Below are positions 33,046-51,387 of a stretch of DNA of 64,000 nt, one piece after another. The stretch spans positions 1 to 64,000 of the forward strand of contig JAVKOQ010000235.1 in the NCBI GenBank assembly GCA_031835245.1. The letters are read 5' to 3'. The position numbers and the translations under genes were made by a program. The notes beneath the pieces are model-generated. The model was not told the DNA's origin. It did not search any database and worked only from the letters and a program-made list of their open reading frames with translations. Position 1 is the first letter of the stretch. The number at the start of each line of letters is the position of its first letter. The stretch is from Balamuthia mandrillaris. Taxonomy: Eukaryota; Discosea; Longamoebia; Balamuthiidae.

Positions 33046-33363
33046 AATCGTTTTGGCTGTTATTTGATTCATGAAGTGCTTTCCAATATTTTTGTGTGGG
33101 GGAGGAGCTCTATGGAATTGGTCTGCTGCTGACTGATAGCCCCGCAAGGATGTTTAATCATTATTCCTAATGAACGAATGATGAGGCTGCAGATGATGAG
33201 GTTGATGATTATCATTAATTAGCTCAAAAATGAGGCCCATTCTATTTTCGTAACGTTCCTTCCCTCTGCCCAAAACCCTGGTACACCCCTGCAACAACAA
33301 CAACAACACAAGTGGATAGAAGAAACCCAGTCCAAGGTTTGTTCGTTGGTGCCCACCACTTAC
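33046..33363. other. Intergenic region
   Basis: This region contains the 3' flank of the ALKBH5-like gene, an ATGATGAGG-type short repeat near 33178-33205 and an (ACA)n run at 33294-33309 just upstream of the next start codon. No coding exon is seen. Confidence 0.5.
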
Positions 33364-45008: not shown

Positions 45009-47455
45009 TCACCAACCCCACGAACTTACGCCCTTTGACTTGTTGCGCTTATGACCACTGCCACTGAAACCTGCCCGAAAGCTCATCCCCGTGGAAAGCG
45101 GTCCGCTGGTCCCGTCCTCTTCCCTTTCCTTCTCTTCAGATAAGGGGTAGCCGTTACCTGCCTCCGCGTGAGGAGACATTTGCGCTCTGTTCGTTGGTTG
45201 CGGTTGCCTATTTGTGGAGCCCCAACGATTTGGAGGAGTGGCAGGAGGAGTGGCAGGAGGAGTGGAAGCTGCAGTGGCGGAGGCACGCGTAGAGGGAGAA
45301 GTGGATCTGGTGCCAGCCTCGCTGCTGATGCGGGTTGGAGAGGCTGCCTGCCTTGTTTTCGTAGGAGTTTGGCGAGCAATTGTATGCTGCTTGTTGGAAG
45401 TGGTGGAGGAGGCGGGGCCAACAAGAACGGGGTCGTCTGTGTAAAATAACACACCGTCCAGTACGAAGTGGGCGCCACCAGGGTTGATGATCTCAACTTT
45501 ATGCTGGCCAGCACTCAGCGGAGGGCTTTGCATCTGCATCACGCATGAATTGCTGCTAGTGGCACGTTCCAAGAGCTGTACTTGGGTGGCTTCTTTACCG
45601 CCCACTAACACCCTTGAGCCGCTACTAAAGTTGTCTCCAGTGAGGCGGATTTGGGTGCCTTGCAGTGGAGAGATTGCTGGATGAACCATGCGAATGTTTG
45701 GTGGTCCTGTTTTCATGGAGGTTTGACAGACGCAGTCGCACTCTTGCATCAATGGCTACCCCAGATAAAGTGAAAGGAAGGGAAATCGACACTATACCTG
45801 GCAGTGAGCTGTCCTCTATAAAAGATCGTTGAGAAGGCTTGCCGCTAGCAACAGAACCTGCAGCAGTAGAAGTGGTATTAAGGAGAACTTCCGAATCCGG
45901 CATTGTGGCTACCAGCTCTTGCAAACTGTCATGCTCTTTACCCTCGATTCCTGCTAAAGATGATAGTGCTGAATCCGCCGTTTCTTTGCCTTTGTCGCTC
46001 ATGCCCGTCCGACCCTGCCCTTCTGGATTTGTCTGCACTTTGCTTTGTTTGGAAAATAGCTCTTTATCTTGCGAGTAGAACAACACACGGCTCAGCTTGT
46101 AGGACCTTTTATCTGGTTATCACAAATAATTGTGCAAATAATATTGAAAGGAAAAAGTGAGAAGAAAAGAATAAAACGTGGTGCGGAAGGATTAAGGAAA
46201 AAGAAACCCGGGTTGATGACTTCTATGTCTTTTAGTCCTTCTTCAAAGAGGATAGGACTCTGACAAATAAGATTATCTTTGGCCACAAACTTAGTCTTGC
46301 ACTTGGCTCCATCGATCAACACTACAGTATCTTTGAAAAAGTTCTCCCCATGAATAGAAATGATAGTGCCTGCCATTGGAGACATCGCAGGTTCAAAACT
46401 GATTATGAAAGGCTCTTCTGCAGAAGACAAAGTTTGTCATAAGAGATGTGAAACACAAGCAAACAGATTGACCCCATCGGTCAGCACAACAGTATCTTTG
46501 AAAAAGTTCTCCCCATGAATAGAAATGGGAGGGTAATACATACTTTCAGTATCTCCCACCCCTTTATCATTCTTCGAAGAAATCTTTTTCTTGCCACTGC
46601 GTTCGTCCTCCATGGCTTGCGCTAAAAGTTCTTTTCGTTGCTGTCAATGTCAGCTTTATTAGTGGCGTTTGCGAGAAACACTGTGAGCTTAACAAAAATG
46701 CAACAAACCTTTTGCAAAGCCTTAAACTTCATGAGGTTTTCTTGCAAGAAATTAACAAGAGAAAGCTTGATATTAGCTTGTATCCGTTTATCACGGGGAT
46801 CATCCAGAGGAATCGCCACCACTTTCTTCACTCCAATGTCAAAGTTTCGAAATAGTTCTAAGAGATGCACCTCCAGCTTCCCAGCAGCCTTTAGCCATAA
46901 TAAAATATAATATAATTGGAGAAGAAAATGCCCAAATGGTAAGCAAGAGGAAAGGGAAACGAGAAATGAGAAATGAAACCTTTAGATTTTCAACAGAGAC
47001 GTCCTCCGCAAGTACCATATCTGTAAACTTGGGGAGAAGTGTAGACAGTAATTGAAGAATCTCGCTAAGGATACCGTGATAATAGACGAGTGGGTGATTG
47101 TCAGCGCGCTCGAGAGCTTCCTCAAATTGTTGCTTCTCCTCTCCTTGCTGTACATATAGTTTACAATTTTTACATACCATTATTGTGACTGTACATTGAA
47201 CAAAGCAAAGTCAGTATGTGTACTATCGTCTTTTGCCAAATTGTTGGAAGGTACCAGCTTCTTCGTTAAAGAATACAGGATCGAGCTCAACCCGCTCCGT
47301 GAAGCAGCTCGAGCAAACGTAGCGCTCACAGAGAGGGCATTGATACTTTTTTCGTATCAGCATCTTAAAAGGAGCCCTGTATCAACGAAAATATCTTTAG
47401 TCTCCTCTCACTTGGGTTCTCACTTCTATCTTTCTCTGTTGCTCGCGCACTCTCA

Positions 47456-47491
<36 letters not shown>

Positions 47492-48176
47492 CTTTCCCTT
47501 CCTTCCTTCCTCTCCCCTTCTCTTTCTGAAGAAAAGGAAAAGAGATGCATACGCGCACAGCGAACACTTGTACACATATTTGGCAGAATCTTGTTCGTCA
47601 ACGCTGCTATTGTAAGAAGGGTCCTCGCCTTTTCCAATCCAAGAACCCGTCTTCCAGAGCAACCCATAAGAAGACCTATTGCGAGCTTCCTCTTCCTTTG
47701 CTTTACGGTCATACGACAGCTAGATTAATAAAACAAAAAAAAATGTCAGAGCGAAACGAAGAAAGTTAGAACTAGGCATGAAGACGCACAACAACGAGCT
47801 CTTCACCTTTGTCTTTTTGTTCATGATGAGCTCCAGCTGCTTGTTACCTCTAGTGCGATAGCTCCTTCTCATGTGTTCGAACACAGCTGTAACGTCCCTA
47901 GTGTGTGGCTCTGCACAAAGTTTAGCAGGAAGGACAGGTGTTTAATCCTGAGAGAAGGCTCTGCATACCGCGTTGAAGGTCGTTGTTGGTGCTGTTCTTC
48001 ACAGAGCTCCTTCGTCTGCGGGGGCCACCTTTGCCCTCTGAATTGCCCTCATCGGGTTGTTGCGAAGGCGCCCCGCCACCCCCTCCATTATTGTTCTTTA
48101 TTGGAGCGGACACTAAGAAATGGGACCTTCCCAAAACCACAGTGGTTGACCATGAAGAAAGGCGGTACATACCCAT
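45009..48176 (-). CDS. FYVE-like zinc finger plus two TIG/IPT domains
   Basis: Eleven exons: 48176-48173, 48112-47969, 47910-47807, 47719-47553, 47376-47255, 47188-46980, 46888-46709, 46640-46544, 46417-46208, 46112-45798, 45706-45009; 749 aa. Residues about 130-190 have CSLC, CPLC, CSSC and CKNC pairs in FYVE spacing, though the usual RRHHC is RKKYQC; several pairs are joined only after splicing. An uncharacterised helical region follows. TIG 1 (about 342-425: FEPAMSPMAGTIISIHGENF) and TIG 2 (about 518-600: HPAISPLQGTQIRLTGDNF) each end in an INPG strand. The C-terminus is Ser/Thr/Pro-rich. FYVE domains bind PI3P on endosomes and TIG domains are immunoglobulin-like. Coding exon 1 is 4 nt, and intron 1 is 60 nt and open in frame, so retention is possible. 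A GTAAGT at the last codons could mean one more exon. Confidence 0.78.
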
Positions 48177-48540
48177 AGCGCGCCAGAGGACCAGTACTTG
48201 ACAACATCCTTGAGCATAAGGCTCATGCGTTTGCCTTGCTCCTCCATTTCTTTGTTGTTTCTTTTTCTTTTTTTTGGTGTGCGTGGATTACTTTATTATG
48301 CTCCAACCTATTAGTGGATTATGTGCGAGATTAATAGCAGAAGTGTCGACACGATACAAGTTTACGGAGCACGACGGAAGAGAGAGAGAGCAAAAACCAC
48401 TCTACTGCTGCTCATTCATTCCACTCCGCAACAACCACCACAAGCTTAGTGCTTAGGCCAACACCATACTACTACTACTACCACTACTACTACTACTACT
48501 TTATTGAACGAACAAAAAAAAAGGCAAAATAATAATAATA
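48177..48540. other. Divergent promoter region
   Basis: This region separates the start codons of the minus-strand FYVE-TIG gene and the MsrA gene. It holds a (CTA)n repeat (48465-48501) and AATAAT runs directly before the MsrA start. No coding exon is seen. Confidence 0.5.
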
Positions 48541-49309
48541 ATGGAAGCGCACGACCTACGGCTTGCGACGGCCACCTTTGCTACTGGCGTAAGGCTGGCT
48601 TCGCCCTTCTTCTTTCCTTCCTCCCTTCATTCTAACCCTTTTTTCCACCTTGTTTGCTCTTATTCTATCTTTGTTGCAACAAACAAACCAGTGATTTTGG
48701 ACCCCTGATGCCGTGTTCGGCATCAGGGAAGGGGTGATACGCACCCGCGTTGGCTATTTCGGTGGTAAAATTGCCGATCCCTCCTACAACGACCTCTGTG
48801 CCGGCCGCTGCGACCACACGGAGAGCCTCCAGCTGGACTACGACCCCCAGAAGGTGAGCTACGAGGAGCTGCTGGAGATCTTTTGGGAGAGCCACTCCCC
48901 GAGCCGGCCCGCCGGCTGCGCGCAGTACATGTCTGCCATCTTCTACCACGACAAGGCTCAGAAGAAGGCAGCCAAGAGCTCCAAGAAAGCCGTGGAGAAG
49001 AAGTACGGCAAGCCCCTCCACACCAAGCTCCTTCCAGCCAAGGGCACCTTTTGGGTGGCTGAGGACTATCACCAGAAGTTCTACTTGAGGAGACACAACG
49101 GAGGCGCCTTGCTGGACATGTTGGGCTTCACCTCCGAGGCGGAGCTGAGGGATTCCCCAGTGGCCACCAAGCTCAACGCTTACGTTCAAAACAAGGGCTC
49201 TCTGGCGCAGTTGCAACAGGAAATAGACTCGTTTAATCTTTCCAGTGAGGCCAGGGACTACCTCCTTGACTTTGTGCAGCGCATGGAGGCAACCAAGCAG
49301 GCTGCGTAA
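48541..49309 (+). CDS. MSRA: Methionine-S-sulfoxide reductase A, selenocysteine-containing
   Basis: Two exons: 48541-48588 and 48692-49309. MsrA reduces methionine-S-sulfoxide in proteins using a nucleophilic Cys in a conserved GCFW motif near the N-terminus. Exon 1 ends ...ATFATG with donor GTAAGG in phase 0, and exon 2 begins TGA TTT TGG, so the codon at the catalytic position (48692-48694) is TGA, giving G-U-F-W. The frame then stays open for 205 codons of clear MsrA sequence (TPDAVFGIREGVIRTRVGY; YNDLCAG; QYMSAIFY; EDYHQKFYL). Selenocysteine at this site is known in Chlamydomonas MsrA and some bacterial enzymes. A SECIS-like hairpin lies in the 3' UTR. The product would be 221 aa including Sec. 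Cys residues in the LCAGRC and GCAQY segments could take part in regeneration (inference). Confidence 0.92.
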
Positions 49310-49367
49310 AGGCAAGCTTGTAGAGAGAACTGACCTGAGGGTGGAACTTTACGCCTTGGAAGAGGCA

Positions 49368-49423
49368 ATGAAGTGAAGTGGAGAAAACAAACTGACAACC
49401 ATGTTTGTATCCATTTGACTGAG
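49368..49423 (+). promoter_or_regulatory. Candidate SECIS element (type 2) in the MsrA 3' UTR
   Basis: It lies 59 bases after the MsrA stop. ATGA at 49368-49371 faces TGAG at 49420-49423, giving the tandem G.A core. Helix II pairs 49373-49382 with 49410-49419 (one G-G mismatch at 49375/49417, one G-U at 49378/49414). An unpaired AAAA (49384-49387) sits about 11 bases above the core, then a short helix of CAAAC (49388-49392) with GTTTG (49403-49407) closes a 10-nt loop. These are the features of a type-2 eukaryotic SECIS. The basal helix I is weak by eye. Confidence 0.8.
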
Positions 49424-49869
49424 ACGAGCAACAGAACATAAGGACCTTCCTATCACCACCAACGTAGGTCCTTATCTCATCGTTCTTCCTTGTGTGTATC
49501 ATTCGTTCTCTTGTCCTCCAACAAGTGTTGGTTGTATCAGTAATAATCTCTCCTCCTTCTCTTTTTATCTCTTGTTTTTTGATTTGAAGAACTTTCCAAG
49601 GGGAGTGTAGAGCGCCGACGATAGGGGTCAGTGTGAGAAATATCAATGAAGTAGATAGACCAAGCCCTTTGTAATATTGGCAACCCGCGATGCTCTCACC
49701 ACCCGTTGACACCCCTTGCGCCATGGGTTTGGAGTATTTTTTTTCTTACGAAAAAAAACATGCCCATGTGAGGTAACACTTCGATGTGGTTTGCCGCTAA
49801 TGCGGCGCTACAAAGAAGCAAGGTTGTGGGCAACCCGCTATTTATTGCTCCCGTGACAAAGGCCCGCCA

Positions 49870-50223
49870 TTATGGGTTGTTGGTTCCGGGCAGCCCCATG
49901 CCCACCCGCTTCGCCACACGCTCCAGCTCCTCCCGCGAAGAGGTTTGAGGCCCGCCGATGCCATAGTACTGCCACAGCCTCTGTTGCTCCTGCATGCTGC
50001 GCAAAAGGTTGACGCTGGTGACGGCCACTCGGTAGAGCTTCAGCCGTTCCCTGTCGCTCGTTACCTCACGGTTCCGTCGGAACTCTGACATCACTTTGTT
50101 CCTCCATAGCGTGTTGTTTGAAACCGGCGTGATGTGCTTGTTGACCTCTCCGAGGAGGGCCTTGTAGACTCCCAATATCTGCTTTTTGTCCAAATTTTGC
50201 CAAGATGGTGCCGCACCGCTCAT
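49870..50223 (-). CDS. FMC1: FMC1-like mitochondrial complex assembly factor (LYR-type)
   Basis: Single exon, 117 aa, the usual size. The order of features fits FMC1: YKALLGEV near the N-terminus, WRNKVMSEFRRNREVTSDRE, a helix with VNLLRSMQEQQRLWQYYG, and an ending AKRVGMGLPG. FMC1 helps assemble the F1 part of mitochondrial ATP synthase in yeast. The start at 50223 is preferred over upstream in-frame codons because the conserved part begins there. It is convergent with MsrA (560 bp) and divergent from GNA1 (369 bp). Confidence 0.78.
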   Translation of the reverse strand: MSGAAPSWQNLDKKQILGVYKALLGEVNKHITPVSNNTLWRNKVMSEFRRNREVTSDRERLKLYRVAVTSVNLLRSMQEQQRLWQYYGIGGPQTSSREELERVAKRVGMGLPGTNNP

Positions 50224-50592
50224 CGTTTTTGTAGTTTGCCGCCTGCCCGCTGAGTTGCTTCCCCTTTCTTCGCTCCACTCGAATTCACAGTTTGGCCCCT
50301 CATCCTGCCTTCCTATTCCAGCAAATCCCCGCTCCGATGGTCCCAAATTTCCAGGGATTTGCTGTGCTGACGAGAACACTCCAGTCTTTTTTTTGTGGCT
50401 TTTCTTCTTTCGTTCTTATTCTTATCACCAACAACAACGACAACAACAAATACCTCATCTCCATCACCCCCACCGCCCCAAACTAATAAGCGGACGCCAT
50501 TGCAGTTTTTTTTTTTAAAAAAAAAATCTTTGTTGAGCCCAACGAGACGTAGCAGTCTACCGCCGCACGCATACATACACCAACAAACGACG
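50224..50592. other. Divergent promoter region
   Basis: Located between FMC1 (minus) and GNA1 (plus). It contains an (ACA)n stretch (50429-50450) and a T10-A9 homopolymer pair (50507-50526) near the GNA1 start. No coding exon is seen. Confidence 0.5.
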
Positions 50593-51387
50593 ATGTTCAT
50601 AGAGAAGCTCGACAACCATTTGGTGATGCGCCCGCTGGGCATCACCGATTATGATAAGGGTATTTCTGTTTTTGAAAAAATCTTGCTTTCTTTCGTATTT
50701 TGTCGGGAGTGTTTCGGAGACGGCCAGTGATCAAAAAAGCTGCGAACAACTACTAACGCTAGCAGCGATGCAGGTTTTCCTGCCATCTTGGGCCAGCTGA
50801 CGGAAGTTGGAGACGTCAGCAAGGAACAGTTCGAGGAGCGGTTTGCGCAACTGAGAAGGACCAAGAACACCTACTTTGTGTTTGTGATCGAAGACATCAC
50901 CAAACAGCGTATCATCGGCGCTGCTACCCTTTTGGTGGAGCGAAAGTTCCTCCGCAACTGTGGCAAAGTATTTCTTCTTTTGCCCGAGTGAAGTGGGGCG
51001 CTGTTGCTCCCTATTTGTGCTGACTTTTCTTGTTTTTTGCTTTTTTCTCCGCAGTGTGGTCACATCGAGGACGTTGTGGTGGACTCCTCCTATCGAGGAA
51101 AACAACTGGGCCTTCGGCTGGTGGAGCTATTGAAGGGAGTGGCCAAGACACTTGGCTGCTATAAGGTGGTGCTGAACTGCTCCCCCAAAAACATTCCATT
51201 CTACGAGAAGTGCGGCTTTGAGAAGCACGAAGTGCAGATGGCCATGTACTTTCCCAAGCAAGAAGTGGCGGAGCGAGCCTCCGCAGCGCCTTCTACCTCC
51301 ACCGCCCTACCAACGCACATCGCTCGTTACGTGGAAGCGCAAGTGGTAGAACCGACTTCTCCTTCGAAGCACGCAGCTAGGCTATGA
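50593..51387 (+). CDS. GNA1: Glucosamine-6-phosphate N-acetyltransferase
   Basis: Three exons: 50593-50659, 50774-50967, 51055-51387; 197 aa. The enzyme acetylates glucosamine-6-phosphate with acetyl-CoA on the way to UDP-GlcNAc. The GNAT fold is clear: LRPLG-type N-terminus (MRPLGITDYDKG), IIGAATLLVERKFLRNCGKCGHIEDVVV, the acetyl-CoA loop SSYRGKQLGLRL, and the terminal NIPFYEKCGFEKHEVQMAMYF. About 40 residues after the catalytic domain are Ser/Thr/Ala-rich and not part of the usual 150-185 aa enzyme. Intron 2 begins within the CGK/CGH segment, as often seen for a compact GNAT gene. Confidence 0.94.

Follow-up and report, generated by a model that had tools for sequence, protein, structure and literature searches.

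The gene at positions 48541 to 49309 on the forward strand of the window (the whole stretch of 64,000 nucleotides analysed here, which is contig C234 of an assembly of 775 contigs and 64.8 Mb) is predicted to encode a eukaryotic selenoprotein MsrA, with selenocysteine (Sec) at residue 17 and a C-terminal helical domain of the type known from Clostridium (Alkaliphilus) oremlandii, a reading to which we assign a probability of about 0.97. A preliminary description of this DNA had proposed that the in-frame TGA of this gene is recoded as Sec, and this proposal is supported by a SECIS-like hairpin in the 3' UTR, by homologues of the Sec machinery elsewhere in the genome and by the occurrence of TGA at the same codon in relatives. 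The features of the locus are given below with their coordinates in the window.

48541..48588, forward strand: predicted exon 1 of Sec-MsrA, 16 codons, MEAHDLRLATATFATG, with the 5' end taken from the first ATG.
48589..48691, forward strand: intron of 103 bases, phase 0, GT-AG (gtaagg...aaaccag).
48692..48694, forward strand: TGA, codon 17, read as Sec, where MsrA has its catalytic Cys.
48692..49309, forward strand: exon 2, encoding the remainder of the MsrA catalytic domain and a probable C-terminal helical domain.
49139..49246, forward strand: match to PF20939 (selenoprotein MsrA, helical domain), residues 166-201, 21.2 bits (slightly below the curated cut-off of 23.7), E 2.5e-4.
49368..49423, forward strand: SECIS-like hairpin in the 3' UTR, with an ATGAA/TGAG core, helix II, GAAA and an apical mini-stem.

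Exon 2 opens with TGA TTT TGG ACC at 48692 and its frame remains open until the TAA at 49307-49309. The conceptual spliced Sec-MsrA has 221 codons, in which the TGA of codon 17 is the sole internal stop, and the reading across the exon junction is ATFATG-U-FWTPDA, with U at the catalytic cysteine of MsrA. The canonical donor and acceptor and the phase 0 junction claimed in the preliminary description were borne out, the same boundaries being found in a second copy of the gene, and the placing of TGA as the first codon past the junction, followed by Phe-Trp, at the MsrA catalytic site was likewise confirmed. The TGA follows the acceptor AG with no base between them, so that splicing at 48691 cannot place a Cys codon in front of TTT TGG. 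An unbroken ATFATG-W-FWTPDA is present in two predicted environmental proteins, P0003 and P0004, which are known as proteins, their DNA being unseen; TGA is translated as W under genetic code 4. As both proteins run through this point without a break, they provide independent backing for the predicted exon junction.

When Cys was substituted at the TGA, the product matched PF01625 (PMSR) over residues 10-152 with 151.3 bits against a cut-off of 23.7, which confirmed that the open frame downstream of the junction is MsrA, as first described. The best solved-structure match was the selenoprotein MsrA of C. oremlandii (PDB 4lwj; residues 7-214, E 2.4e-42), and the region matched by PF20939 lies inside this alignment. 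The C. oremlandii protein (PDB 4lwj, 4u66) carries Sec at the catalytic position together with a C-terminal helical domain, as is predicted for the product of the window gene. According to the consulted part of the published account of that enzyme (PMC4333827), the Sec form is 20-fold more active than the Cys version, activity requires the helical domain, and glutaredoxin is an efficient reductant. The same part of that account describes no Cys besides the catalytic Sec, whereas the protein encoded in the window contains Cys 52, Cys 56 and Cys 92. Cys 52 and Cys 56 delimit the motif CAGRC (residues 52-56, window 48797-48811) in a lengthened loop between RVGYxGG and DHTE, a loop that is shorter in the 11 aligned relatives and in each of the 78 bacterial loci measured. 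A similar loop, CSGQTGH, is seen in the Cys-type MsrA of the same genome.

The extent of 48541..49309 put forward initially held for the coding part of the gene, but the functional unit is longer and reaches at least 49423, so as to take in the SECIS-like element. To our knowledge, Sec decoding in bacteria proceeds without a SECIS in the 3' UTR. The element has the order ATGAA-GTGAAGTGGA-GAAA-(mini-stem)-TCCATTTGAC-TGAG, with 10 of the 11 positions of helix II paired, and lies 58 nt past the stop codon and 676 nt past the TGA; the corresponding element of the second copy, on contig C220, lies 60 nt past the stop. Helix II forms in the minimum-energy folds of both copies, and the core ATGA and GAG are unpaired. 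The A run is unpaired as GAAA in the window copy, and in the C220 copy only GA is free, the remaining As being taken up in the apical stem. The C220 hairpin is 7 nt shorter, with the difference confined to the apical part and helix II intact. Helix I, below the core, was absent from the predicted folds of both copies, in which a separate upstream hairpin formed instead. The folding energies gave z values of -1.6 and -2.0 for the two copies, with 16 of 200 and 9 of 200 shuffles folding equally well, and folding energy alone is weak evidence for a SECIS.

SECIS candidates were sought by a custom scan for core, A run and helix with a score of 8 or above, rather than by SECISearch3. Across both strands of the 64 kb window the MsrA UTR element was the only match that scored at least 8. 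Dinucleotide shuffles of the 561-nt MsrA UTR attained a score of 8 in 2 of 500 cases, a figure which is somewhat flattering because the candidate had already been spotted by eye when the scan was written. The scan also found a hairpin after the stop codon in all three copies of SPS2 in the same genome (score 9), and these hits were not known beforehand. Over 17 loci of the genome (L040-L056, 92,833 bases, both strands) it returned the three SPS2 elements and one chance match, a low-complexity stretch in L052 with a score of 9. Rfam yielded no SECIS hit within 47400-51000 of the window (E up to 10), and it missed the SPS2 hairpins as well (two SPS2 loci, E up to 0.5), thus indicating that its library is insensitive to these SECIS elements. 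A MAFFT alignment of the SECIS stretches of MsrA and SPS2 was rejected as structurally not sensible. Further downstream, a neighbouring gene on the minus strand at 49870-50223 (MSGAAPSWQNLDKKQILGVYKALLGEV..., 118 codons counting the stop) resembles, by eye, a small LYR-type protein, and the MsrA 3' UTR extends no further than the 3' end of this neighbour.

If the TGA is decoded as Sec, the genome should hold the means to do so, and the preliminary description had predicted tRNA-Sec, EFsec, SBP2 and SelA-type genes elsewhere in it. A tRNA-Sec was found by Infernal at C111:21854-21939 (70.9 bits, cut-off 47; anticodon loop CUUCAAA), in locus L009, for which ARAGORN called no tRNA. About 200 bases past it lies a second tRNA-Sec-like sequence (C111:22138-22224, L009 1785-1871) of 26.5 bits, below the cut-off of 47, which is perhaps a decayed tandem copy. 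EFsec was also found, on C95, where the spliced exons match the selenocysteine-specific elongation factor 5izk as the best PDB match with E 9.1e-121, compared with E 1.5e-34 for the best EF-Tu. None of the 37 matches to TIGR00475 (EFsec) was above its cut-off, and the real gene was the lower match on C95; the top matches were rejected, as inspection by eye pointed to EF-1A and mitochondrial EF-Tu. For SBP2, C138 has one resembling exon (E 2.1e-5 over 69 residues), nearly duplicated on C165, while PF01248 matches on C44 and C324 were rejected because their sequence did not read as SBP2. The expectation of SelA-type genes was not borne out: the genome has SecS, on C38 (five matches, best 145 bits), the eukaryotic route being through PSTK and SecS and not SelA. 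PSTK was found on C13 as two exon pieces (E 3.6e-12 and 3e-8, below whole-protein cut-offs). SPS2 is present on C37, C438 and C403, and in all three copies exon 1 ends in ELKG-TGA-G and the next exon reads CKVPQ; each copy has its own TGA at the catalytic site and a SECIS-like hairpin past the stop. By similarity, then, every main component of Sec synthesis and decoding is represented by a putative homologue, PSTK and SBP2 only in pieces.

The second copy of the gene, on contig C220 (L003), is 92% identical over 1,877 aligned columns and 93% identical over 1,173, with the junction at the identical position and the TGA retained; its CDS is 9 bases longer, in frame, near the C terminus. As the C220 copy carries the TGA too, an assembly or base error is an unlikely source of this codon. 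Over 218 codons compared, with the TGA codon excluded from the rates, the two copies differ at 6 synonymous and 13 nonsynonymous bases (dN 0.023, dS 0.054, ratio about 0.4), pointing to mild constraint between them. The stretch shared by the two contigs spans about 47166-50368 of the window at 92-93% identity, and further genes are likewise found in near copies, an indication of separated haplotypes or of genome duplication. At least four other amoeba-type MsrA genes were found (two on C135, one on C35 and one on C630), all four with GCFW; the genome search scored the best candidates only, so that the count of MsrA genes is a lower bound. The Cys-type MsrA of this genome has the PMSR domain and the FW motif in common with Sec-MsrA, but the frames stop shortly past the PMSR domain (...GGQCAAK.CTDTIRCYG) and are without the helical domain. 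The two genes on C135 (L004) stand in tandem, at 33268 and 34072, and near copies of one of them lie on C35 and C630.

Bacterial relatives were examined as DNA at 80 loci, the best 80 of at least 559 confirmed and not a random sample, and among these the codon before TTY TGG was TGA in 71 and Cys in 7 (4 TGC, 3 TGT), with the site unlocated in 2. On such sequence comparison the in-frame TGA at the MsrA catalytic codon is confirmed as a real feature beyond chance, given the Pfam PMSR score of 151 bits and the TGA at the same codon in 71 of the 80 bacterial loci. Protein relatives numbered 395, of which 120 were listed, the window gene's own fragment, P0001, among them; 75 of the listed proteins start downstream of the catalytic site, 26 have Cys there, 18 have Trp and 1 is misaligned. 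Gene callers turn TGA into late starts or into W, which fits this pattern, and the 18 W-bearing relatives may be read as Sec proteins since TGA gives Trp under code 4, their DNA being unseen. In a quick, midpoint-rooted tree of 107 rows, with weak deeper forks and with algal Sec-MsrA left out, the window protein was sister to the environmental P0003 (SH-aLRT 90) and fell outside both an 82-row, mainly bacterial clade (SH-aLRT 96) and a 17-row clade holding the named animal rows (SH-aLRT 88).

The same observations bear on three other accounts of the TGA. The codon could be a true stop and the locus a decayed gene, a pseudogene of a Cys-MsrA, whose function could be covered by the other intact-looking Cys-type MsrA genes; the dN/dS of about 0.4 between the copies is not strong constraint. 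However, the remaining frame is open in both copies and the lone nonsense codon falls exactly on the catalytic residue, while a SECIS-like element lies downstream and TGA is common to 71 of the 80 bacterial loci, and we consider decay very improbable. Still less credible is alternative splicing that avoids the TGA and leaves a main product which is not a selenoprotein. The position of the TGA directly at a splice junction would suit such a scheme, but the acceptor used cannot yield Cys-Phe-Trp, and the same codon is TGA in bacterial relatives and W in environmental ones.

The least probable account, to which we attach hardly any weight, is a changed nuclear genetic code in which TGA is read as Cys or Trp. 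One contig of the same assembly, C3, does seem to read TGA as Trp, its MsrA having two TGA, but C3 looks like a separate bacterium of mycoplasma type with bacterial tRNA clusters. The Trp of the window gene, two codons past the TGA, is encoded by TGG, no TGA was seen at conserved Trp or Cys positions in the MsrA, SAHH and EFsec exons read, and tRNA-Sec and the Sec route are present in the genome, all of which speak against a changed code. C3 itself is a contig of 570 kb with a mycoplasma-type look, on which the loci L001 (C3:73688-77137) and L013-L015 were examined for the MsrA match with two TGA and the bacterial-looking tRNA clusters; it is perhaps a contaminant, perhaps an endosymbiont.

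Under the preferred reading, in which codon 17 of the window gene specifies Sec, the mechanism would follow established knowledge of the family, the sequence itself supplying the gene anatomy, the shared TGA, the hairpin and the machinery homologues. PSTK and SecS would form the Sec-tRNA, drawing on selenophosphate supplied by SPS2, which in this genome is a predicted selenoprotein in its own right. SBP2 would bind the SECIS in the MsrA 3' UTR and recruit EFsec with Sec-tRNA, which together would read UGA 17 as Sec. In the finished enzyme Sec 17 would attack methionine sulfoxide to give a selenenic acid, and this would be reduced by an external thiol, for example glutaredoxin, or be resolved by Cys 52, Cys 56 or Cys 92. 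A bolder reading would make this gene the first report of Sec-MsrA in Amoebozoa and place it in a deep eukaryotic lineage with the helical domain, distinct from both the animal and the bacterial clades; Cys 52 or Cys 56, in the lengthened loop near the active site, would then resolve the selenenic acid internally, where C. oremlandii MsrA relies on glutaredoxin. We regard this reading as doubtful.

Sec-MsrA is described, in the parts of the literature consulted, from green algae and a diatom (PMC2375036, PMC7539508), from marine invertebrates (PMC3473315) and from bacteria (PMC4333827), in agreement with the earlier statement that it was already known in algae, other organisms and bacteria. 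The eukaryotic cases are likewise selenoprotein MsrA, but the host here is probably amoebozoan. This placement comes from SAHH: among the 120 relatives listed of 7,996, those with an organism name are the amoebozoans Stereomyxa (78%), Vannella (77%) and Planoprotostelium (76%), rows bearing no such name go up to 84%, and neither these rows nor the PDB matches included an identical protein. Five selenoproteins, MsrA not included, are given for D. discoideum in the consulted part of PMC2375036. For A. castellanii, the consulted part of PMC8038987 has a predicted Sec thioredoxin reductase and a 163-residue MsrA that is not called a selenoprotein there, and SPS2 is reported in some Amoebozoa in the part seen of PMC4561486. 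No report of an amoebozoan Sec-MsrA was found in the open-licence literature searched, as far as the consulted portions of it extend, which is consistent with the view expressed at the outset that this case is likely undescribed.

The known spread of Sec-MsrA would thereby gain a lineage, probably amoebozoan, in a genome in which each main part of Sec decoding was detected. The gene also exemplifies a problem of annotation. Automatic annotation conceals the family's active site, as 75 of the 120 proteins listed (P0001 among them) start past it, and in the protein database searched the only form of the window's Sec-MsrA gene is P0001, a fragment of 126 residues that begins at residue 96, downstream of the TGA.
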